Notes under the pieces: generated by a model
Told to the model about the DNA's origin: nothing
The model's database searches: none
Seen by the model: only the letters and a program-made list of their open reading frames with translations
From: Liolophura sinensis
Taxonomy: Eukaryota > Mollusca > Polyplacophora > Chitonida > Chitonidae
NCBI RefSeq assembly: GCF_032854445.1
Contig: NC_088301.1
Span: 27,758,402-27,822,401, forward strand
Length of the DNA: 64,000 nucleotides
Reading direction: 5' to 3'
Shown: in pieces, positions 31,326 through 44,810 of the stretch
How positions within the stretch are numbered: position 1 is the first letter of the stretch
How the letters are laid out: every line of letters starts with the position of its first letter
Program-made: the position numbers and the translations under genes

Positions 31326-31579
31326 AGCTTGAACCCGAGTTGCCATTGTCCATTTACTTGAACACACTCAGCACGTCTTCTACTTTTTGACGAGTTCCTA
31401 TGCTATACATGAGACATAAACTTTGTATAATGATAAACCACAGATTTATGTCTGGTCATTTTTACTTGTAACAAAACAATGGAATTTTCAAACAGAACTT
31501 TGGTGCCTTGGACCAGCTATGACTACCACTATGCTGTACATACCATCACAAGTTACTTTTGAACTCTTAGAACCATAAC

Positions 31580-31862
31580 TGTACTAATACAAGATTTCTG
31601 TTTTATATAATTATGTTAATTGTTACACTTCACCTTGTGAGAACTGAAACTGTACTAATACAAGATTTCTGTTTTATATAATTATGTTAATTGTTACACT
31701 TCACCTTGTGAGAACTGAAACTGTACTAATACAAGATTTCTGTTTTATATAATTATGTTAATTGTTACACTTCACCTTGTGAGAACTGAAACTGTACTAA
31801 TACAAGATTTCTGTTTTATATAATTATGTTAATTGTTACACTTCACCTTGTGAGAACTGAGC
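31580..31862. repeat. 71-bp tandem repeat x 4 abutting the SNX stop codon
   Basis: The unit begins TGTACTAATACAAGATTTCT and ends CCTTGTGAGAACTGAAAC. Starts are at 31580, 31651, 31722 and 31793. The array ends within about 10 bases of the SNX stop codon (31867-31869), so on the - strand it opens the 3' UTR. Units are essentially identical, implying recent expansion. Confidence 0.95.
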
Positions 31863-31866
31863 TGCT

Positions 31867-31971
31867 CTAATCTATAGACCCGTGTCCTGAGTCCACAGCT
31901 TCTTGTTTCTCCACAATCATAGGGTCCGGGGCTTGCATTGTCCTAATGGCGTTCTCCCAAGCTGTTAAACA
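31867..31971 (-). CDS. SNX30: SNX exon 11 (terminal)
   Basis: The acceptor ttgttgtag gives [18 protein letters not shown]...SGHGSID then TAG. It aligns with human CLATWESFL. A closer AG (aacag) seven bases further in would break the frame. Confidence 0.93.
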   Translation of the reverse strand, partial: CLTAWENAIRTMQAPDPMIVEKQEAVDSGHGSID

Positions 31972-34900
31972 CTACAACAATGTTTATTACACATTATTAA
32001 TCAAGATGGGGTTTCGACTTCAAACTCTTTTATTTAAAAAAAAAAACTCGTAGTATATCACATGACCTGTTAGAAATGTTTAGAAAAATATTTTATGTTT
32101 AGATTTACTGTAACATGGGCATCTGAAAAAAGTTTCACAAACAGTTAGGGTAAAAAGAGAGAACTGTTTATTATACATTATTAATCAAGATGGGGGTTTC
32201 GACTTCAAACTCTTTTATTTAAAAAAAAAACTCGTAGTGTACCACGTGACCCGTTAAAAATGTTTAGAAAACTTATTTTACGTTTACATTTACTGTAACA
32301 TGAGCATCTGAAAAAAGTTTCACAAAAAGTTAGGGTAAAAAGAGAGAACTGTTTATTATACATTATTAATCAAAATGGGGTTTTGACTTCAAAAAACTTT
32401 TATTTTAAAAAAAAAAATCGTAGTGTACCATGTGACCTGTTAGAAATGTTTAGAAAACTTATTTTACGTTTACATTTACTGTAACATGGGCATCTGAAAA
32501 AAGTTTCACAAAAAGTTAGGGTAAAAAGAGAGAACAGTGTTCATTATACATTATTAATCAAGATGGGGTTTCAACTTCAAACTCTTTTATTTAAAAAAAA
32601 AAAAACTCGTAGTATACCACATGACCTGTTAGAAATGTTTAGAAAAATATTTTACGTTTAGATTTACTGTAACATGGGCATCTGAAAAAAGTTTCACAAA
32701 AAGTTAGGGTAAAAAGAGAGAACTGTTTATTATACATTATTAATCAAGATGGGGTTTCGACTTCAAACTCTTTTATTTAAAAAAAAAACTCGTAGTGTAC
32801 CACGTCACCTGTTAGAAATGTTTAGAAAACTATTTACGTTTTTACATTACTGTAACATGGGCATCTGAAAAAAGTTTCACAAAAAGTTAGGGTAAATGAG
32901 AGATAGAGAAAACTGACAAGCTATACATGTGTGAACATGTGGAGGTTCCTGGAGGGAACAGGTGTCATTTGCACCTCCGGAACACCTCAGGACATGAGAT
33001 TGGTGAATTAATGTCAACAAATGTATCACTTCAAGGCCATTATGTGCTTCGGAAAATGTATTTTTAATTGCCAAACCTTAAGTCTTTATCTTCATACTTA
33101 TAACTTTGTAAGGCTTTACTTGCCTATAACAATTTACATGCACCTTCCTAATGTATACTGAGGGGCCTCCATGGCTCAGTTGGTTAGCGCGCTAGCCCAG
33201 CGTAATGACCCAGAAGCCTCTCACCAATGCGGTCGCTGTGAGCTCAAGTACAGTTCATGCTGACTTCCTCCCTGGCCTTAATTTGGAAGGTCTGCCAGCA
33301 ACCCTGCAGATGGTAGTGGGTTTCCCCTGGGCTTTGCCCGGTTTCCTCCCACCATAATGCTGGCCGCCGTCGTATAAGTGAAATATTCTTGAGTATGGCG
33401 TAAAACACCAATCAAATAAATACACACTGTATGCTGTTTACTAAGCCTTGATCTACCTACTTACTGTTTAGTTTAAAACTGATCTGTCTACTCACCGTTT
33501 CATAATACTTGATCTCTCGATCACAAGTGGCCATGAACAGCTCTTTCATGTCCCGACGTTTGTTCTTGTGCCATCTTTCCATATCTGCCTTCAGATCTGC
33601 GTTGGCGATCACTGTTTTATCGTTGAGTTGCTCCATCTGAGTCGTCAGCTGAAACAATGAAGTGGACATTTATATTTAATTTGTTCACTTAATTGTTACC
33701 TAAAGATTTGAGATATTCTATTTAAGACATGGAGCTAAGGGGTGTGGTGCAATTTGCTACTATTTAAGCATGAGACACAGTGATTTTCTTTTGTCCCAGT
33801 AATATGTAATCTTTAGAAACAGTGTTGTACAGGCAAGGGAATGTTTCTTACTCCTGTATCAATGAGACCAGTTTCTCTCTTTCGACTTTGATGCCGCCAT
33901 TTTTCCCAGGTCACGTGCCTTCAGACAGTCACGTTATTTCTACACACCCGCTGTTTGACTACTTTCACTCAACTTGACTCAACTTGTTGATAAAAAATAC
34001 ACAGGCACATTTCTGATCCAATAACGTTGGAATGTGTTGAGTGTTGTTGAACGAAGTTGAAGAACCCGTCCACACTACTCAACACGGCTCAACTTGTTGA
34101 CTCAACTTCAAGTTGACTCTTGTTGAGTCAACAAAAGTTGAGTGATGTTGGATAGTCAGGATGGGTTTTGACTCTTATTACTCAGTATTCCTGTATACAC
34201 CAGCATTAAGCTGGTGGACTAGCCATCCCTGAGGCCTGCTTTAATGTTATTATACGTTACATGTGATGACAACACAGCATTTTGAGAAATTCTAGATCAG
34301 TTATGTCTAATAAATCGCAATTAACATCACTTCACTCTGTTTTTATTCTTCAGCCACGGTACAAGGGAGCATGTAATTAAATGTTACATAAACAGTTACA
34401 ATTAAACCCTAAATGAGGTAAAAAAAAACAGGCCTTATTTCACAATATGTGTGATCATTTGACAATGATCACACCGTCATTGCTGCTCTGGTTTTACTAT
34501 CTACGCTGTAAGTCTAAAATAATCTGCTAAAATATCAGCAAGAATTCAACTGGATTTGCACTGATCAATTTCTGGCCAAAAATCTCCGGTATAGCCTCTT
34601 AGACACTTACATCAAGGATTTGTTGTTCCAGCTTCTCTTGCTTCTGTTGCTTGACGTCTTCTGGATCTTTGCCAAGAAACGCCCCAAAAGAGTATGTCTG
34701 GTCAGATATCTTCAGCTGCAGGACATAGGGTTTTTCAAAATTCACCTTGGCTCTTTAACATCTAAGATATCACTTCCCAATATTTCTATATTTTGGAACA
34801 CACAAGTTCTTTAAAACATGGTGTTACCCATAATGTTCATTCTTTCATGCAGTCTGACATTGTGCTGTCCATTTAAAAAAGTATATCAAATCTAAATGCA

Positions 34901-37900
34901 AGCCAACACAAGCATTTATACATTACGCAAAGAAGATTTATACATTTATCCTTATCTTATAGGAAAAGACATTCCAACAATTTTTAAATATCGATGATGT
35001 ACAATATTCCATCATTACTAACAGTGAGTATTTTTTTTTTCTGCTCCACATCTTCACCAACCAAAAGACTAACATTTATATGCAGGCACACTTTCCTTCT
35101 CACCTCCACTCGGATTTTTTTTTATACATCTGCTTGTTCTTTAAATTTATTATAGCTGCTACTCCATTTGCTTTTTTTAATTCACATTCTGTCCGCATTA
35201 ATCCCGCAATATATTCTTCCATTTTAACATATTCCACTATTTTTTGAAGTAGATTTTCTATTATAGTCTTATTATTAGTATTGACATTCAATGAAACAAG
35301 CCTAGATTTGCAATAGCTTCGGCAATTTGCTATATTAAAGTCAACTATGTCTGTCACATCATGATGTGAATGGTCCATTATATAGGGTGACATCAATTCT
35401 TACTGACTAACAGACAGAGGGCCTTACAGCAAGGCTCACTGCAGATGTAAATAGAAAACCTACGTAATAATAAAACCCAAAATTGACTCCCACTGAAGAA
35501 CGAAGAAATTGACTTAATTGGCCAGCGTGTGAGAGTAAGGGAAGGTCCCTGAAACCAGTATTTTAACAACATTGCCAGAGCGAAAAAAACATAGAATGGG
35601 TTTTGTTTTCAGCTCACCAATTCCCTTTCATCTTTCCTCTTGTTCAATTCCTCCACTGTCATGTCATACTCCATCTGTATGGCATCTCTCCTCCGTAACA
35701 CAGTCTGAAATGGTAGTATGTATACTGATACATGGATTGGTGAATTGCTGGTACTGCAAAAATACTTCACTTATATAACAATATGGCTGACCACTTCTCC
35801 TTTGTAATCCATCTCTCATTTGTATATATGTGTACCTCATTGTGATGTCATTACGGTAATGTCTAAATGACCCTTAAACAAGTTATATGACAAATGTGTA
35901 GTTTGTGGGTGAAGGAGGAGAAATAAGAGAACCACCCCTTAACCTGGCAGATCTCTCAGCACAAACAACAGTAGAACAGCCTGGAGTTGGATTTGAACAC
36001 ACACCCTCACTGGGTAAAGGTTGTTGAGTGCGTCAGTCAAACCAAGTGATACAATAGCGAACAAATGTGACAACACGCACCTACATATGTGTATTTATTT
36101 ATTTTTGGGGTTGGTGTTTTATGCCGTGCCCTAGAATATTCAAATATATGTCAGAGACCAGCATTATGGTGGGAGGAAACTGGGCAGAACCCGGGGGAAA
36201 CCCATGACCATCTGCAGGTTACTGGCAGATCTTCCCACTTGCAACTGGAGAGGAAGCCAGCATGAGCTGGGTACATATGTGTAAGGAAATAATATTCAGA
36301 ACTGCTCGGACCTGCTCCATCTTAAGAAAAGACAACAATGCTGAAGTATTTTATTCGTTTACATCTTTTTTAAAATAATCAAAATTATCACCTCTCTTTT
36401 GATTAATTTATTTATTTGCTTGGTGTTTTAAGCCGTTATCAAAAATATATCACCTATACGATGATGGCCAGCATTATGGTGGGAGGAAACCACGCAGAGC
36501 CTGGAGGAAGCCCACGATCATTGCAGGTTGCTAGCAGACCTTCCCACGTACAGCCAGAGAGGAAGCCAGCATGATCTGGACTTGAACTTACAGTGACCGC
36601 ATTGGTGAGAGGCTCCTGTGTCATTCCGTCGCACTGTCACGCTAACTCCCTCTGACACGGAGGCTCCTACTTCTCTTTTGAGCTCTTAACACATCTTACT
36701 GTTAAACGTTACTGTCTTGGAAATACAAGACAACTCTAGCATGCTTCATCAGTAAAATATTTTTGTGAAAACGGCAGGGACCATGTGTTGTATTCTGTAC
36801 TTCATCAAGAATCACTACATATTAGTCTTCATTTAATACAATGTGCCATATAAACATAGGAATGAGTTTGATGCTGGATGATTAAAGGCACATACCGCCC
36901 CCACCCAAAAAATTTTGGTGTTATTTTAGACGTCATCTACATAAAGTTGATTCTTCCAGATGTCTGCTGACATGCGTCAGTGAACAATCGAACATTCAGT
37001 TTTAATTGGGGATTCCCTTCGACCATCAACTCACTCAAGTCATATTTAGAAAGCCTGACTTTTTATCAGTCAGTTACCTCCCATTGTTGTCTAGATAATG
37101 GAGAGGTTCAGCAAACTTGAAAATGTCAGACATGGTACTGTGTTGTAATTATATGGCCTACTTCATCAATTCAGTTCTGCGCTACATATCGCTGGGAATT
37201 ACAAATACTTTATACAACATTTTTGATAGAGTGTAAGATCATATTTGGTTTACTAGACTTATAATTTTGCTTTCAATCTATTTTATTGCTTACCTGTCAA
37301 ATCCACGAGTGTACGTTGCATTGGGGGAATCTTTGCGCTGCCTCATTTGCATGTTATCTTGTCAGGCGGACAGTTTACAACAGTGACAGATTTCCCCTTA
37401 TGATTCTCTTTCATTAAATTTTTTGAAATATTGACCCTGAGGCTTAAGACAGGTGTCAAATGCAACTCATTTTTATATTCAGCTGAACTCCAAAACTCTG
37501 AATTACTTTCGGCAGTATCATATCATCACTTTTGCTTAAAATGAATCATCACATAATACACAAGCCTCAGAATAAATGAATACAAAACCTGAGGGTTTCT
37601 TCATTGAAACTTGTTATAATGATGTAAGTTATACTAAGGGAGAGATGTGTTGTATTGTTGGTTGAATTAAGAGTTGCAAAATGTATTGGATCATAGGCTG
37701 GATGACTAAGATGTTAGTTTTTACCTTTACAGCTTCAGTATATAGTATATATTCTTTGAGGGGCTGAGTTAAACAATCGTCTGTGGAATCGATCTGTGAA
37801 TATCAAAACATTCACGTAGAATTATTAGCCTGTTAATACAATCAAAATTGTTTAACAGTTATGTAAGGAATTTAACATAACTATGCCTAATCACAGGGCG

Positions 37901-40900
37901 TTAGATGGAATCGGTAGTACGCCTATATCTGATGTTGTACTTGTACTTACATCAAATTTCAACAGCTTAGACTTGTTTTAAACTTACATGTACTCTTAAG
38001 AAATAACCATACTTTATTGTGAATAGTTAAAATTATGGGTTACAGCACATGATCAAAACTTATAGCTTGAATTGACACAGCTGCAGAATGTTTAATACCA
38101 CAGCCTGTGAGTTTTAAATGAAAATATCAGTTACCAGACTGGCTGTTGCGTGAGACTGACCAGCTCAGGTTATTCTCATTTATAAATACCGCCATAGTAA
38201 GCCTACTGTACGGTACAAAAAATGCTGCACACAGAACATTTTCACTGAAAGGGCGAGGTACAAATTTGAAATGCTGGCATTCTCAGCCAGTGAGCGATGT
38301 TTCAATGTGAAACTTTAGAAAACCTTTATCATTTACTGACCAGGTCTTTGAGGGCGGCAGAACACTTCTCCAAGGTGTGTGACATTGACAGTAGGGCTGG
38401 GGTTAGCTTCTCTTCTGAGTTAGACCACAAGGTGTACACGGGGCCCCAAGAGTACAGGTCCATTAGGTAATCTACAACAGAACCACAGGCTCAGAGACCA
38501 CCAGAATATCTACTAAGCCAACTCCAAGAGCAAACCTTTCCATTGACCCAAGGATTTATTTATTGATTTGATTGGTGTTTTACGCCGTACTCAAGAATAT
38601 TTCACTTATATGACGGCAGTCAGCATTATGGTGCGTGGAAACCGGGCAGAGCCTGGGGGAAACCCACGACTATCCGCAGGTTGCTGACAGACCTTCCCAT
38701 TGACCCAAGGAGCATTACAGTTAGTGAATATTCCATGTCTTTTCTGGATTACCAAATAAACTGCGCTAGAAAATAAAATATACACTGCTACTTTCCCATA
38801 ATTCTGTTTTATCAAAATGCACAACCCAACAGGACACGATACTGGTTGTCATCATTATGTGACTGTCCAGCTGTATCAGACATCTCACCAGTCTGTTCCT
38901 TGACTATGCGCTGTGATATTCGCTCCAGCACTCCCAGCTTGTCCGAGAAGGTGAGGATGTATTCCTGCATGGCGGTGAACTCTGGTTGCCTGGACTTCAT
39001 CATGTATGCAGCACCCATGTTGTGAAGGGAATCTGCCACACGGCTTATCAGACCAGACCCCTGCTTCTTGTGTGCAGCAAACTCCTACAAAACAACACAA
39101 TATCAATCTCTTACAATCATTTAGCTCCAATAAAGTGTTAAATTTAGAAACTTTGGTGTCACTCACAGTGTAGAAACTTAGGTGTAATTTACAGTGTAGA
39201 AACACGGATGTAATTCACAGTTTAGAAACTTGGGTGTAATTTACAATGTAGAAACATGGGTGTAATTTAGGTGTAATTCACAGTGTAGAAACTTGGGTGT
39301 AATTTACAGTGTAGAAACTTGGGTGCAATTCACAGTGTAGAAACTCAGGTGTAATTTACAGTGTAGAAACTTGGGTGTAATTTACAGTGTAGAAACATGG
39401 GTGTAACTTACAGTGTAGAAACTCAGGTGTAAAAACTTGGGTGTAATTTACAGTGTAGAAACTCAGGTGTAAAAACTTGGGTGTAATTTACAGAGTAGAA
39501 ACTTGGGTGTAATTTACAGTGTGGAAACTCGGGTGTAAAAACTTGGGTGTAATTTACAGTGTAGAAACTTGGGTGTAATTCACAGTGTAGAAACTTGGGT
39601 GTAAAAACTTGGGTGTAATTTACAGTGTAGAAACTTGGGTGTAATTCACAGTGTAGAAACTTGGGTGTAAAAACTTGGGTGTAATTTACAGTGTAGAAAC
39701 TTGGGTGTAATTTACAGTGTGGAAACTTGGGTGTAATTCACAGTGTAGAAACTTGGGTGTAATTCACAGTGTAGAAACTTGGGTGTAATTCACAGTGTAA
39801 TCTCCTAAAATGCATATGTGCATGGCATTCAACAAGAAGGCAAATCAACCTGGGCTTTGACGACTGGACATATGAACAGATGAAAATAGGGATTGAGGGA
39901 CTCATGCATGTCTAGGGGGACCCATGCATGTCTTGGGGGACTCATGTCTACGGGGACTCCTAGACTGTGATGAACAGGGAAATAGAAGACTAACCAGACA
40001 GACAGACTAACTTACCCATGCCTTAGCTGTTAAGAACACCTGGAAGTGTGTGTTGAAGGAGAGCACAGGGTGATCTGCTATTCGAGTGAGAAACTTCTGA
40101 AGTGCTCTTTGGCGTACGCGGATAAACTCTGGGCTGAACCTGTCCAGGCGCTTCAAGCTGTGTTTTTCAGGCAGGGGCTACAACAACAGAAAAAAGGTAT
40201 CTTCAGTTTACAACAGTGACGGATTTACCCTTATGATTCTCTTCAATTAACATTTTCGAAATACTGACCCTGAGGCTTTAGATAGGTGTCAAATGTAACT
40301 CATTTTTGCATTAACATTCAGCTGATCTCAAAAATACATGTTTAGCTGTTTTTTTTTTTATACAAGAGGCCCTTTTGTTGACATTTGTTGTACATATAGG
40401 CTTGGTAGTGCCTCTGCCATACATGTATTTATTTCTTTATTTTATTTGATCGTTTATTTATTTGATATAATGAAAGAATTTCATTATACACTTACTCAAG
40501 AATTTCCCACTTACATGTGTTCGATGACCTTCAATTTTACAGACAGAGGATAATGGAGCACCAAGAGTAAACTACCAACCTTTGATGAACTGCTTTCAAC
40601 CCTAAGTGCGTCTGGGTGACACAGAAGTGAAACTATTATCCTGCACTGTTACGAGGTAGTTTTGTTTATCAAAAATTCTATCTAGTGGAAGAGACCTGAG
40701 ACCAGAGAGTACACCATGGGTAAGTTACTGACTAACGACGTGATCTACAGGTATGCAGGTCATACAGCTGGAAGCATGGGTTGTCGGCCACTTATTGTCA
40801 TAACGTGGGGAGTCCAGCAAGTGTGAGATTTTTTTTTCTTTTTTAGAAATGGATGGATTGTATTTTTACTTATATCGTTACTTACATACACATGAACACA

Positions 40901-43900
40901 GAAATAGCTATTCTCTCTCCATAATGTACAGACTATGATGACATTTGCCGTGTCGTATTCAGTCATGACATATTTCACAACTTTAAGGACACTTTTTGCA
41001 AACAATGCAGCTAGCTTTTTTTACACACTGACGACTGATACTCCATGGCAGTAGGGGGTAACAACAAAATTTGAGGCTAGGCTTTGAGAACAGATCGGGC
41101 CATCCTCATAATCATTGTACAGTATCATTTTTGTACTTTCTACATTTATTTATTTATTTGATTGATGTTTTACGCCGTACTCAAGAATATTTCACTTATA
41201 CGACGGCGACCAGCATTATGGTTGGAGGAAAACGGGCAGAGCCCGGTGAAAACCCATGACCATCTGCAGGTTACTGGCAGACCTTCCCACGTACGGTACT
41301 TTCTACATACATTATACAGATGGTGCATACTGTGGTATGGAACATGAGGAATTGTCGGCTCTAAATGAATGATATTCACCGAAGCCGGTTGTGAACATCA
41401 CTTGTCGAGAGCTGACAATTCCTCATGTCCCATACCAGAGTATGCACCAGACATTTTATTATAGAGAGAAAACAGTGCACCTTTTCGGGTTGTGTTCAAA
41501 TCGCTGAAATTGTAGGCCAATAAGGGAGCTATAACCGTAAACCCTTTCTTTACTTTATGACCAAGCAGAGATCTGAGAGCTAACAAAGGCAGATAACTGC
41601 CGCGGAATCAAGGCAGGTGATCATTGGATATTAGCATGATATCACTGGATATTGCCTCGTGAACGTTGGATGTTAGCATGATATCGTTGGATATTGTCTC
41701 GTGAACGTTGGATATTACTTTATGAGTGTGACGTTGCATTCCTTAAGCGCGTGATCATTGTACATCATGGTTTGCGGAATATCATGTGACCGTCTCTCGA
41801 CCAATGGAAACCGAGAATAACCCTACGAGGTACATGTATAATAATGCATATTATTTCATGACTGACAGAGACTACACAATGTTATAATATGATATCATAG
41901 CAAAATATCATTCTGGTATTACATACATTATTCACAAGGGGAACAATAGATCCTATCCCTAGGGCTTGCATGTATGACATTTGCATACATACACTCATTA
42001 TTAGTACAGGCACATGCAACTGAATGCAGGTTATTTATTTATTTATTTATCTGATTGGTGTTTCACGCCATACTCAAGAATATTTCACTTTTACGACGGC
42101 GACCAGCATTATGGTGGGAGGAAAACGGGCACAGCCTGCGGGAAACCCACGACCATGAGCGGATGAATGCAGGTTAGCCCTCAATAGCATAAGGCTAGGC
42201 ATATTGATTATAGTCATTCATTAAAACCTGGACATCAGCCAGATGTTGGCTGTAAAAATTAATACTAATGATTGTATATTTAGCCATGTATGACATAAGT
42301 CAAAAAAATAGTTACCATTGATGTAAACTGTATCCTGTAAAAATGCACTTTCAGAAGCACATATAGGCCTTAAAATGATACATGAGTTTTTCTGATAATG
42401 ATACATGAGTTTTTCTGATAATGATACTAAGTCTTTTTGATAAGAAATTAATAAAATTTCAGAAAAAAAAACCCATTAAGTGAGTTTTTCTACAAAGTTT
42501 TTCCAAAAAAGTTTGTCACAGATGTGTAAGTCACATAATGCTATCATCTACACTGTAGAAATTCATGTGCTACAAGATTTGCTCTTCAAATCAACACACA
42601 ACTACATAATTTGGTTAAAATTTGTAGATCACAAAATTCCACTCTTTACTCCTCAGCTGAATGATGTGTTCCTCTGTGGGTCACATAAGAGAATTGAACT
42701 TACTAGAATCTCCTCATCAAACATCCAGCACACTAGCATATGAACTAAACTGGAACTGTCACTAGGTCTTCTTATCTCTAACAAAAACACTGGAAGGCTG
42801 CCCTCCCTTTACGACCATTCCCATCTCCGCAGGCCACATTTACATTTTACATGCTCACAGGCCTTGTATTCTAAAAGTTAGAACCTTTTTGGTCACGGTG
42901 CCAGTTTAATGGATGAAGGGTTTATCCAGTGGGCCATACCAGGGTATTCTTACAAGCTACAGCTAGTATTAGCACTGGACCATAGTTCCCATCACGAATA
43001 TGTGCAAGTACACAGTGCAACTTTAAACGTAATTTATGAATCATACTAATAATTTGTTAATGTCTGGCCTTCACTCAAAGTTTTATCAACCAACATTTAA
43101 AAAAAAAACACTGTAATGCTCTTGAAATATGTCAAAAAATGTACCATGTTACTATTATAAAAGGTTGGAGAATTTTCTTTGAAATTTTCCGCAGTGAATG
43201 CGTAGTGTAACTTACACGCGTAGTGTAACTTACATGCGTAGTGTAACTTACTGGCACTAAATGGGTAGGGTGTGACTCTTCCAACTTCTGTCGCAGCCAG
43301 AGGAAGTCATTGTATCGTCTTCTCACACAGTATTCATGAGTATCATATTCACTGCGAGTGGTCTTCAAAAAAGATGAAGAAAGCAAAAACTGGAAAATAC
43401 AATTCATACTCTCATACACGGTAAAAACAGAAAAATTTTTACAAACGTCAATATGCCAAACCTAAGGCCTATAAAGTGAATACTGGGATATAGTAATTGT
43501 AGCTCTCCAACAAATGGTATGCTGATCATTATATAGCAATATCTGTTTTAAATAAAGACATGTCTTGCACTGCCTTTCATTTATTTATTTATTCATTTGA
43601 TAGGTGTTTTATGCCCCTGCGCTGTATCTAAGTGAACAGTTTGTTTGTAATGTGTACACTTTCTTGCTCTATTGAAATTTACCAACAGAAATGATAAGGA
43701 CATTTACATGTAAGATTAAGACTTACTCATTCAGCTATGTCCTGAAATTGTAATAAACATTGAATCATTCTTTAACTTTAACTACATTTGCTCTTTATGG
43801 TTATCATTTGCAGATTTTCATTTACTACTTAACGAGGATGCAACTGTGGTAGAACATACCCTTGTAGTACATCTAAATGTGATATACGAGTCCATGGTGC

Positions 43901-44810
43901 CTGTGTGTTTTTCTGGATTGTCAACAACCACAAAGAGATCTCTGGTCTCCACATCGCACTCATCTTCCAGTTTAAAGGCAGCAATTAAACTGGAACTTCG
44001 AGAAATGTTTACTTCAGAATGAGCTGATGTGTCCAAGTCCAAACTTTCCAACTGCAAGAGGATTACAAGACTTTCATGGTCACTTTCATTGCAAAAAAAA
44101 AAAATCGGCTCATAACAAAAATTTATTTATCAGCATCAAAATACTAGTCAAATATGGGAATCATCAGGAAACAATTAGCCTAACCTGCAGACTAACTGAT
44201 TATATTTACCAAAGTATATAGTCCAAGCGCCTACCAGTATACTGAAAAAGATACCACATTCCAATATCATTACGACAAACATTTAGCCCTTAAAAGAAAG
44301 AAAATGGGGTACATTTACATAAACCAAATTATTACTAATTACTAAAACCAATATATTATTATTATAAACTGTCATGACGGTTTAGTCGAGAATCTAGAAA
44401 AAGAACAGATGATTTTTTCATTATTCCATTGTCGTCTTTCTTATTGGAATTCTTCAGATTAATCCAGATAGTCCCAACATTTCAATCTATGAATTAGCCA
44501 GTGATTGGAATTGTGTTCGTAAACATAAACATATAGCAGCGAGTACAATACATCAGATGCCATATCATAATAAGTGTAAAAGCGTTCCGCCCCCTTCAAA
44601 GTACATGTGTATCTATTTCCAAAACGTCAAACGTTGATGGAGGACATGAATGTGTGTTATTTACCAACACACAGAATACTATTCACTGACCTCTGCATCA
44701 TCGCTGTCCACATTGCTTGTTAACGGGTCCTTGAATTTCTGAGGTTCATCAGAGATCGGTGAAGTGTCGACTTCTTCTCCTAAACCGTCCGCATTCAGTG
44801 GATCCGCCAT
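31867..44810 (-). CDS. SNX30: SNX7/SNX30-like sorting nexin (PX-BAR), 11 exons, complete
   Basis: An endosomal sorting nexin of the SNX7/SNX30 (yeast Atg20/Snx42-related) group. The PX domain binds phosphatidylinositol 3-phosphate and the BAR domain dimerises and bends membrane. Exons, 5' to 3': 44810-44691, 44051-43860, 43362-43252, 40177-40016, 39084-38889, 38471-38341, 37793-37725, 35704-35618, 34715-34611, 33648-33496, 31971-31867. All joints are GT-AG and in frame, giving 476 residues (human relatives about 440-450). Residues 1-76 are acidic and disordered. The PX domain is about 77-190 ([44 protein letters not shown]). The BAR region is about 215-442 ([42 protein letters not shown]). 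The start ATG is in exon 1, 228 bases from the divergent INIP start. SNX7 and SNX30 are vertebrate paralogues; I chose SNX30 because of its INIP neighbour. Confidence 0.95.
31981..32905. repeat. about 185-bp tandem repeat x 5 in the last SNX intron
   Basis: Each unit starts TGTTTATTATACATTATTAA and runs through TCAAGATGGGGTTTCGACTT, an A-tract, CTCGTAGTGTACCA, TGTTAGAAATGTTTAG and TCTGAAAAAAGTTTCACAAA. Starts are near 31981, 32165, 32350, 32539 and 32723. Copies differ by a few percent. Confidence 0.95.
33020..33085 (+). repeat. dispersed repeat family B (copy 3)
   Basis: TCACTTCAAGGCCATTATGT, GCTTCGGAAAATGTATTTTT and GCCAAACCTTAAGT match the 3' part of 24325-24590. Confidence 0.4.
33162..33424 (+). 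mobile_element. tRNA-derived SINE, full length
   Basis: It has the head GGGGCCTCCATGGCTCAGTT with GGTTAGCGCGCTAGC, an intact A box, the altered B box GAGCTCAAGTACAG, a full central domain and the CAAATAAATA tail. It lies in the SNX intron between exons 10 and 11, antisense to the gene. Confidence 0.92.
33496..33648 (-). CDS. SNX30: SNX exon 10: BAR C-terminal helix
   Basis: Acceptor ttgtttcag, donor GAAACG|gtgagt. It encodes [20 protein letters not shown] and [16 protein letters not shown], aligning with human NALKADWERWKQN...YYEQ. Confidence 0.95.
33945..34160. repeat. TTGAC/GTCAA-rich inverted repeat cluster in an SNX intron
   Basis: Perfect 13-bp arms TTGTTGACTCAAC (34094-34106) and GTTGAGTCAACAA (34122-34134) lie within a longer stretch where ACTCAAC and GTTGAGT words recur at least ten times on both strands. 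This resembles subterminal repeats of a DNA transposon, but no terminal ends were defined. Confidence 0.6.
34611..34715 (-). CDS. SNX30: SNX exon 9: BAR domain
   Basis: Acceptor gtcctgcag, donor CTTGAT|gtaagt. It encodes [20 protein letters not shown] then [15 protein letters not shown]. Weakly conserved linker and start of a coiled-coil helix. Confidence 0.9.
35618..35704 (-). CDS. SNX30: SNX exon 8: BAR domain
   Basis: Acceptor catttcag, donor GAATTG|gtgagc. It encodes [20 protein letters not shown] then NKRKDEREL, matching human MKRRDQIQAELDSKVEVL. Confidence 0.93.
36094..36271 (-). mobile_element. 5'-truncated SINE
   Basis: It starts (minus strand) CCCAGCTCATGCTGGCTTCC just downstream of the B box and is otherwise complete. 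A 12-bp perfect duplication TACATATGTGTA (36082-36093 and 36272-36283) flanks it. Confidence 0.9.
36403..36671 (-). mobile_element. tRNA-derived SINE, near full length
   Basis: Head GGAGCCTCCGTGTCAGAGG, central domain and tail are present. A 10-bp duplication TCTCTTTTGA (36393-36402 and 36672-36681) flanks it. Confidence 0.9.
37725..37793 (-). CDS. SNX30: SNX exon 7: BAR domain
   Basis: This 69-nt exon has acceptor tattcacag and donor GTAAAG|gtaaaa. It encodes [20 protein letters not shown] then AVK, matching human LLPVVHEYVLYSEML. Confidence 0.92.
38341..38471 (-). CDS. SNX30: SNX exon 6: BAR domain
   Basis: Acceptor gttgtag, donor GACCTG|gtcagt. It encodes [20 protein letters not shown] then [20 protein letters not shown], matching human YFDEMKEYGPIHILWSASE. 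Confidence 0.95.
38555..38696 (-). mobile_element. 5'-truncated SINE (headless) with 15-bp TSD
   Basis: It starts (minus strand) at GGGAAGGTCTGTCAGCAACC and lacks the tRNA-like head. A perfect 15-bp duplication CCATTGACCCAAGGA (38540-38554 and 38697-38711) shows it inserted in this form. Confidence 0.9.
38889..39084 (-). CDS. SNX30: SNX exon 5: amphipathic segment and first BAR helix
   Basis: Acceptor gttttgtag, donor CAGACTG|gtgaga. It encodes [20 protein letters not shown], a likely membrane-proximal amphipathic stretch, then [20 protein letters not shown] and [10 protein letters not shown]. It matches human SSHKKQGPGLLSRMG and EFMEMNNFIELFSQKINLID. Confidence 0.95.
39135..39805. repeat. 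about 26-bp tandem repeat, about 25 copies, SNX intron
   Basis: The unit is AATTTACAGTGTAGAAACTTGGGTGT, with variants aattcac, ctcaggt and an interspersed short form GTAAAAACTTGGGT. It fills most of the intron between SNX exons 4 and 5. Confidence 0.95.
40016..40177 (-). CDS. SNX30: SNX exon 4: second half of PX domain
   Basis: Acceptor ttgttgtag, donor GCATGG|gtaagt. It encodes [20 protein letters not shown] then [20 protein letters not shown]. The proline-rich membrane loop and the basic [11 protein letters not shown] helix are the diagnostic PX features. Confidence 0.97.
41146..41295 (-). mobile_element. 5'-truncated SINE (headless) with 13-bp TSD
   Basis: It starts (minus strand) CGTACGTGGGAAGGTCTGCC and ends in the (AAAT)n tail. 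A perfect duplication GTACTTTCTACAT (41133-41145 and 41296-41308) flanks it. Confidence 0.9.
41321..41449. repeat. 42-bp-arm inverted repeat (long hairpin), SNX intron
   Basis: Arms 41321-41362 and 41408-41449 pair at 39 of 42 positions around a 45-nt loop. The left arm starts TGGTGCATACTGTGGTATGG and the right arm ends CATACCAGAGTATGCACCA. It starts 25 bases after a SINE. It may be a small palindromic element or a hairpin RNA source. Confidence 0.9.
41624..41715. repeat. 42-bp tandem duplication
   Basis: Two copies of TTGGATATTAGCATGATATC followed by TTGGATATTG and CTCGTGAACG. Confidence 0.85.
42034..42163 (-). mobile_element. 5'-truncated SINE with 13-bp TSD
   Basis: It contains the 3' half only, from GGTCGTGGGTTTCCCGCAGG on the minus strand to the tail. 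A perfect duplication TGAATGCAGGTTA (42021-42033 and 42164-42176) flanks it. Confidence 0.9.
43196..43252 (-). repeat. 18-bp triplication of the SNX exon 3 splice donor
   Basis: On the minus strand GTAAGTTACACTACGCAT is repeated three times directly from the exon 3 boundary. The donor GT of each copy is at 43251-43250, 43233-43232 and 43215-43214. All three are strong GTAAGT matches, and the 18-nt spacing preserves frame. Confidence 0.95.
43252..43362 (-). CDS. SNX30: SNX exon 3: PI3P-binding RRRY motif of PX
   Basis: Acceptor ttttttgaag, donor GTGCCA|gtaagt. It encodes [20 protein letters not shown] then [17 protein letters not shown]. The RRRYNDF arginine and tyrosine are the phosphoinositide contact residues of the family. 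Two further in-frame donors lie 18 and 36 nt downstream. Confidence 0.95.
43579..43617 (-). mobile_element. SINE tail fragment
   Basis: TTTATTTATTTATTCATTTGATAGGTGTTTTATGCC is the 3' end of the SINE reversed. Extremely 5'-truncated or a deletion remnant. Confidence 0.6.
43860..44051 (-). CDS. SNX30: SNX exon 2: start of PX domain
   Basis: Acceptor cctcttgcag, donor ACAAGG|gtatgt. It encodes an acidic linker, then [20 protein letters not shown] and ITFRCTTR, matching human RAQDLFVTVDDPESHVTTIETF. Confidence 0.95.
44691..44810 (-). CDS. SNX30: SNX exon 1 with start codon
   Basis: ATG in the context TCAGAATGGCG. It encodes [20 protein letters not shown] and [20 protein letters not shown], an acidic disordered N-terminus, with donor GCAGAG|gtcagt in phase 0. 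Confidence 0.92.

Follow-up and report, generated by a model that had tools for sequence, protein, structure and literature searches.

Closely spaced donors at a single exon are known as tandem alternative splice sites (TASS), and the best-studied donor kind consists of GYNNGY sites whose 4-nt steps break the reading frame (PMC8055015). Tandem duplication beside a splice site has also been described for intron sliding and intron gain in Drosophila, where one-sided or multiple-of-three shifts create alternative borders and where new introns arise from the duplication of coding sequence that contains a proto-splice site (PMC2891723). In structure-masked 5′ splice sites, such as those of tau exon 10 and SMN exon 7, the donor is held in pairing with some other sequence, thus affecting its access to U1 (PMC7404189).

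Herein, we describe a locus of the chiton Liolophura sinensis that shares, or in the case of masking is predicted to share, a feature with each of these systems and differs from all of them. As judged from sequence only, a single exon is followed by three donors (at 43251, 43233 and 43215; all positions refer to the window, i.e., the whole stretch of 64,000 bases analysed, C7:27758402-27822401). Instead of frame-breaking 4-nt steps, these donors form three near-exact repeats 18 nt apart that are in-frame, are predicted to insert residues and can pair with one another. Whereas the Drosophila events duplicate coding sequence, the chiton array repeats only the bases of an existing intron, and the predicted pairing partner of a masked donor is another copy of the donor itself. 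Among the titles in the literature searched (few subscription journals, with queries not worded for donor-donor pairing), none concerned mutually pairing donors or the tripling of a donor through tandem repetition. Splice sites within tandem repeats offer a simple route for a length mutation to change a protein in-frame, and the chiton array is short, found at one place in the genome, confined to one intron, situated inside a conserved motif and open to sharp predictions.

The array resides in a gene that, by its domain matches, is an SNX7/SNX30-type PX-BAR sorting nexin. The gene model spans 31867-44810 on the minus strand (whole coding span) and comprises 11 exons, the last beginning at 31971. 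In its 476-aa protein, residues 111-192 match the PX domain (PF00787, E 3.1e-21, 76.1 bits against a Pfam gathering cut-off of 21.6) and residues 207-449 the Vps5 C-terminal (BAR) region (PF09325, E 2.3e-8, 34.4 bits, cut-off 27). The closest solved chain is the PX domain of SNX7 (3iq2, E 2.4e-46), followed by SNX1 at 5.3e-26. Since the listing of solved chains (35 sequences) holds no SNX30, SNX2 or SNX4 chain and the comparison is one of E-values, SNX7 and SNX30 are not separable here. Compared with these sorting nexins, the one unusual feature of the chiton gene is the optional insert discussed below.

Exon 3 (43252-43362, minus strand, 111 nt, phase 0 at both ends) encodes the PX stretch TTRSEYD...THLVP, and exon 4 (40016-40177, minus strand) the remainder of the domain. 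Between them, the phase-0 intron 3 (40178-43251, minus strand, 3,074 nt, acceptor TTGTAG|CCCCTG) splits HLVP|PLPEK between its two prolines. With introns of 497 nt and 3,074 nt on either side, exon 3 is suited to exon definition. PX domains were located at 22 places in the 609 Mb assembly (632 contigs), two of which (L018 and L032) belong to the SNX7/SNX30-type gene. At 15 of the 20 others, the proline-loop stretch is unbroken in one open frame (as judged by eye), while the remaining five (L020, L025, L033, L034 and L035) do not cover the loop. We also considered that the position of intron 3 might be common to PX paralogues; inspected by eye, none of these 20 places has an exon end between the two prolines (15 covering the loop), leaving such a shared position unsupported. 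A search of the genome at the protein level gave 11 matches, all within the SNX7/SNX30-type gene, and thus no second gene copy or retrocopy that could show the state before duplication.

At the junction of exon 3 and intron 3, the minus strand carries three 18-nt units that together occupy 43251-43198, the first base lying at the junction itself. Copy 1 (GTAAGTTACACTACGCAT, 43234-43251) opens with donor 1 (CCA|GTAAGT), which is probably the site that intron 3 inherited. It is followed by copy 2 (GTAAGTTACACTACGCGT, 43216-43233), opening with donor 2 (CAT|GTAAGT), and by copy 3 (GTAAGTTACACTACGCAT, 43198-43215), opening with donor 3 (CGT|GTAAGT). The copies show 0, 1 and 0 mismatches, respectively, the one change in copy 2 giving GCGT. 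The tripled unit that the original prediction had placed at this boundary is thus indeed present, although the range given for it (43196-43252) encloses the array with 2 nt and 1 nt to spare. In the window, GTAAGTTACACTACGCAT is matched three times with at most 3 mismatches against 0.05 times expected, a count of 3 that none of 100 shuffles reached, and Tandem Repeats Finder assigns the array a period of 18, 2.9 copies and 97% matches. The unit is matched at 4 of 18 positions in the preceding 18 nt and at 3 of 18 in the following 18 nt, so the edges are sharp, and the array and intron 3 share their first base, with no copy in the exon. Given one donor, the chance of finding GTAAGT at both +18 and +36 is about 1.4e-7 (estimated from the window's own density of 48 GTAAGT on both strands), which makes the array a true tandem repeat. 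The units differ at 1 base in 54, suggesting that the array is young or has been homogenised.

With its head-to-tail, near-identical units and sharp bounds, the array fits the minisatellite class. Genome-wide, the 18-mer occurs with at most 1 mismatch at three places, all in the donor array (reversed control: 0), and the surrounding 391 bases have one match, namely themselves. Within the reach of these searches, which skip simple repeats and very common words, an origin of the unit from a mobile element finds no support, and the array is real, local and probably a recent tandem duplication rather than a piece of a dispersed repeat.

The gene model confirms the phase-0 junction, the 18-nt steps and hence the preserved frame that had been claimed for the three donors. 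The reading frame stays open for 39 codons into intron 3, and the unit has no stop. Splicing at donor 2 would add VSYTTH, and splicing at donor 3 would add 12 residues, in both cases inside LVP|PLPEK, exactly where the insert had been foreseen. This is the proline element of the PX domain, for which a membrane-facing role had been proposed as well. In agreement with that proposal, a survey of human PX domains counts the proline-rich element and the stretch after it, up to the second helix, among the predicted membrane-contacting sites, an assignment made by a docking predictor that agrees with lipid-bound structures (PMC8156045). Of 35 matches, the three whose alignments were displayed, human SNX7 (3iq2), SNX1 (23as) and a putative vacuolar sorting protein (6h7w), are ungapped across PPLPEK. 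Because these homologues are continuous there, splicing at donor 1 restores LVPPLPEK, which probably identifies this donor as the inherited one. The PX score of a fragment falls from 80.5 bits without an insert to 72.0 with 6 residues and 68.6 with 12; the domain is still recognised by its profile, which says little about folding.

The donors had also been called strong, and all three do carry the full GTAAGT, but none has a G at -1 (CCA, CAT, CGT). Their duplexes with U1 are nearly equal, at -5.6, -5.5 and -5.5 kcal/mol for donors 1, 2 and 3 in 11-nt windows and -5.6, -5.7 and -5.5 kcal/mol in longer ones, so that sequence alone does not choose among them; the donor of exon 4 pairs with U1 more strongly (-10.3 kcal/mol). 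On a scale of human base frequencies, donor 2 scores 5.4 bits, donor 1 3.4 and donor 3 3.1. The nine other donors of the gene model range from 2.5 to 5.8 by this measure, placing all three array donors within the working range, and a site of the same type as donor 2 (GAT|GTAAGT) is used at exon 9 in the model. For human genes, minigenes with two identical donors, 365-nt introns and exon definition are reported to use the upstream donor exclusively, whereas in about 60% of alternative 5′ splice site events the preference goes to the downstream site (PMC9225289).

The U1 5′ end used for these energies, ATACTTACCTG, is present at all three U1 loci inspected from a list of 41 matches. Most of the listed matches (34 of 41) lie on contig C10, where they form a U1 snRNA cluster (C10:30033968-30140539, L036-L038) with steps of mostly about 2 kb. 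Four more are found on the small contig C627, possibly a part of the same array.

A second property of the unit concerns RNA folding. The first nine intron bases, GUAAGUUAC, are self-complementary except for the middle G, meaning that any two copies can pair, and GTAAGTTAC is nearly self-complementary too. The predicted hairpin GUAAGUUACACUACGCGUGUAAGUUAC (43207-43233, minus strand) pairs donor 2 with donor 3 at -9.5 kcal/mol in isolation, compared with -5.7 kcal/mol for the isolated hairpin of copies 1 and 2, and the variant base of copy 2 contributes an extra C-G pair to it. When native flanks are included, the summed pairing in the predicted ensemble is about 0.8 for copy 2 with copy 3 and 0.01-0.04 for the other two combinations. 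Across 36 of 36 overlapping choices of flanks, donor 1 is predicted to be the least paired (mean 0.43 vs 0.80 and 0.82 for donors 2 and 3); these figures come from thermodynamic folding, which leaves out co-transcriptional order and proteins. When the segment running from copy 1 to mid copy 3 is folded in isolation, its best structure has copy 1 on copy 3 (-10.3 kcal/mol), a pairing that falls to 0.03-0.04 once flanks are included. A uniform array of three copies gives the same pattern less sharply (0.49, 0.80 and 0.79). Of 300 arrays whose unit tails had been shuffled, 99 had donor 1 as the most open, close to the expected one third, and 1 combined donors 2 and 3 at least 0.8 paired with donor 1 below 0.5, a bar derived from the true array with identical flanks.

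Taken together, we favour (with a probability of roughly 0.6) a minisatellite at the donor of an SNX7/SNX30-type gene in which donor 1 is dominant and donors 2 and 3 give leaky, minor in-frame isoforms. Tandem duplication of the first 18 bases of intron 3, in one or two steps, would have produced the short minisatellite, and since every copy brought a full GTAAGT, the transcript would offer three in-frame donors. The probably inherited donor 1 most likely still yields most of the mRNA, because it restores the conserved LVPPLPEK, lies nearest to the exon's acceptor and faces competitors that are predicted to pair with each other owing to the near self-complementarity of GUAAGUUAC. Such pairing would put donors 2 and 3 partly out of the reach of U1. 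Their leaky use would lead to minor isoforms in which 6 or 12 additional residues interrupt the proline motif of the PX loop. What counts against dominance of donor 1 is the top score of donor 2, the use of a donor of that type at exon 9 in the model, the downstream preference in human events, the best isolated fold, in which copy 1 pairs with copy 3, and the fact that donor 1 is itself about 0.4 paired. Should donor 1 alone be used, the locus would be a clean example of a spliceosome ignoring two nearby good donors.

The original prediction had instead seen a graded set of isoforms, with all three donors used at useful levels and tuning the membrane binding of the PX loop. That reading gains from the near-equal U1 pairing and the top rank of donor 2 on the human scale, as well as from a stop-free unit that keeps the frame and would place its insert in a membrane-facing element. 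In human coding regions, moreover, the relative expression of the minor tandem site is described as dominated by shifts of a multiple of three (PMC8055015). We nevertheless hold it to be unlikely. The insert breaks a motif that is ungapped in the three displayed homologues, and the near-uniform array at a single place in the genome gives no hint of having been maintained for long. In addition, this genome is rich in tandem arrays, human minigenes carrying two identical donors spliced from the upstream one (PMC9225289) and donors 2 and 3 are predicted to be buried. On balance, the earlier interpretation is partly supported: its three usable-looking in-frame donors stand as read from the sequence, while the weight of the evidence points to donor 1. 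The same broken motif, uninterrupted in the displayed homologues, also speaks against a one-sided intron sliding by which donor 2 or 3 would have become the principal donor and the insert a part of this species' protein. One-sided border shifts and distances of a multiple of three are among the signs of intron sliding reported in Drosophila (PMC2891723), and donor 2 scores best by the human base frequencies, but donor 1 is still fully formed and its two rivals are the ones predicted to be buried, making such a shift quite improbable. Finally, the assembly might misstate the copy number in either direction, given a HiFi depth of only 14x (PMC11068029) and a repeat that is short and nearly perfect. 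Since 54 bases are far below the mean HiFi read length of 8,347 bp (PMC11068029) and the middle copy bears a variant base of its own, we regard this as highly improbable.

Folding also raises the question of copy number. With flanks of 60/80 nt, the predicted mean pairing of positions +1 to +6 is 0.38 for a single copy, 0.82 and 0.83 for two uniform copies, 0.41, 0.81 and 0.82 for the three copies as found, 0.82-0.83 for four uniform copies and, for five, 0.50 at the first donor followed by 0.80-0.82. The alternation holds in three of three flank choices, the first donor being 0.36-0.62 paired with 1, 3 or 5 copies and all donors 0.78-0.83 with 2 or 4. A structural switch could therefore be imagined in which the first donor stays partly accessible at odd copy numbers and every donor is masked at even ones, so that length polymorphism would alter the splicing of exon 3. 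With an estimated heterozygosity of about 1.2% (PMC11068029), alleles that differ in length are plausible. Besides the alternation over one to five copies, the extra C-G pair that separates the two hairpin energies (-9.5 vs -5.7 kcal/mol) fits such a switch, as does tau exon 10, where a stem-loop embedding the 5′ splice site affects U1 binding (PMC7404189). The parity is, on the other hand, a pure folding model that helicases and co-transcriptional binding of U1 may override. The variant base sharpens the pattern without creating it, the first donor of a uniform three-copy array reaches 0.62 with flanks of 20/40 nt, and an ancestor with two copies would have been masked, which makes three copies difficult to reach if the effect is strong. 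We consider this switch rather improbable. More speculative still is its generalisation, namely a self-pairing donor array whose almost palindromic start would make each tandem copy the antidote to another and length polymorphism a parity switch for splicing. If true, donors that start with a palindrome would tolerate tandem duplication in places where other donors do not, and the self-complementarity raises the general question of whether duplicated donors persist more often if their initial bases are able to pair.

Returning to the preferred reading of a minisatellite with a dominant donor 1, its genomic surroundings show which part of the arrangement is special. Tandem arrays with a score of at least 80 number 19 in the window after merging (donor array included) and cover 6,305 of the 64,000 bases (9.9%); six of them, the donor array among these, lie inside the SNX7/SNX30-type gene. 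Pairs of GTAAGT 18 nt apart are not over-represented in the genome, with 199 places (79+120); the reversed pattern, a control that differs in composition, has 651 (290+361). Among the first 100 of the 199 places listed, 11 runs in nine regions besides the donor array hold at least three donors in step. Three of these regions (L039, L045 and L046) are long or interrupted arrays, and the other six hold 3 to 5 GTAAGT in step. Ahead of the first donor, the open frame of the best phase measures 12 to 61 codons across the nine, and the five stretches scanned, out of 27 (nine regions in three phases), gave no Pfam match at E 0.1. Within this scope (first 100 of 199 places, 5 of 27 stretches), no second exon with a tripled donor was recognised. 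Arrays carrying donor-like words are thus ordinary in this genome; the notable part is an array placed exactly on an exon's donor, in frame. In two of the six regions with 3 to 5 GTAAGT in step (L043 and L044 on contig C3), a unit common to both, GTAAGTATATGGTAACAT, is tandemly repeated after ...ATACAG, so that they look like copies of one dispersed element.

Some neighbours of the donor array deserve mention in their own right. Intron 4 holds a larger minisatellite (39145-39799) with a unit of about 26 nt, TGTAAATTACACCCAAGTTTCTACAC. The core TGTAA[A/G]TTACAC occurs 15 times on the window's minus strand, twice in the donor array and 13 times in intron 4, with none elsewhere, and its looser form TGTAANTTACA is expected 0.22 times by simple shuffles. 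The likeness suggests either a common origin of the two arrays or a chance similarity found after looking. The intron 4 core is nearly self-complementary as well and could pair with the donors. Further downstream, intron 10 contains five copies of a 186-nt unit (31981-32903), each with a pyrimidine run and TTTTTTCAGATGC(C/T)CATG, resulting in a tandem of acceptor-like sites just upstream of the last exon. Four perfect 71-nt copies then occupy 31577-31860, the first of them 7 nt past the stop codon of the gene model, and probably belong to the 3′ untranslated region.
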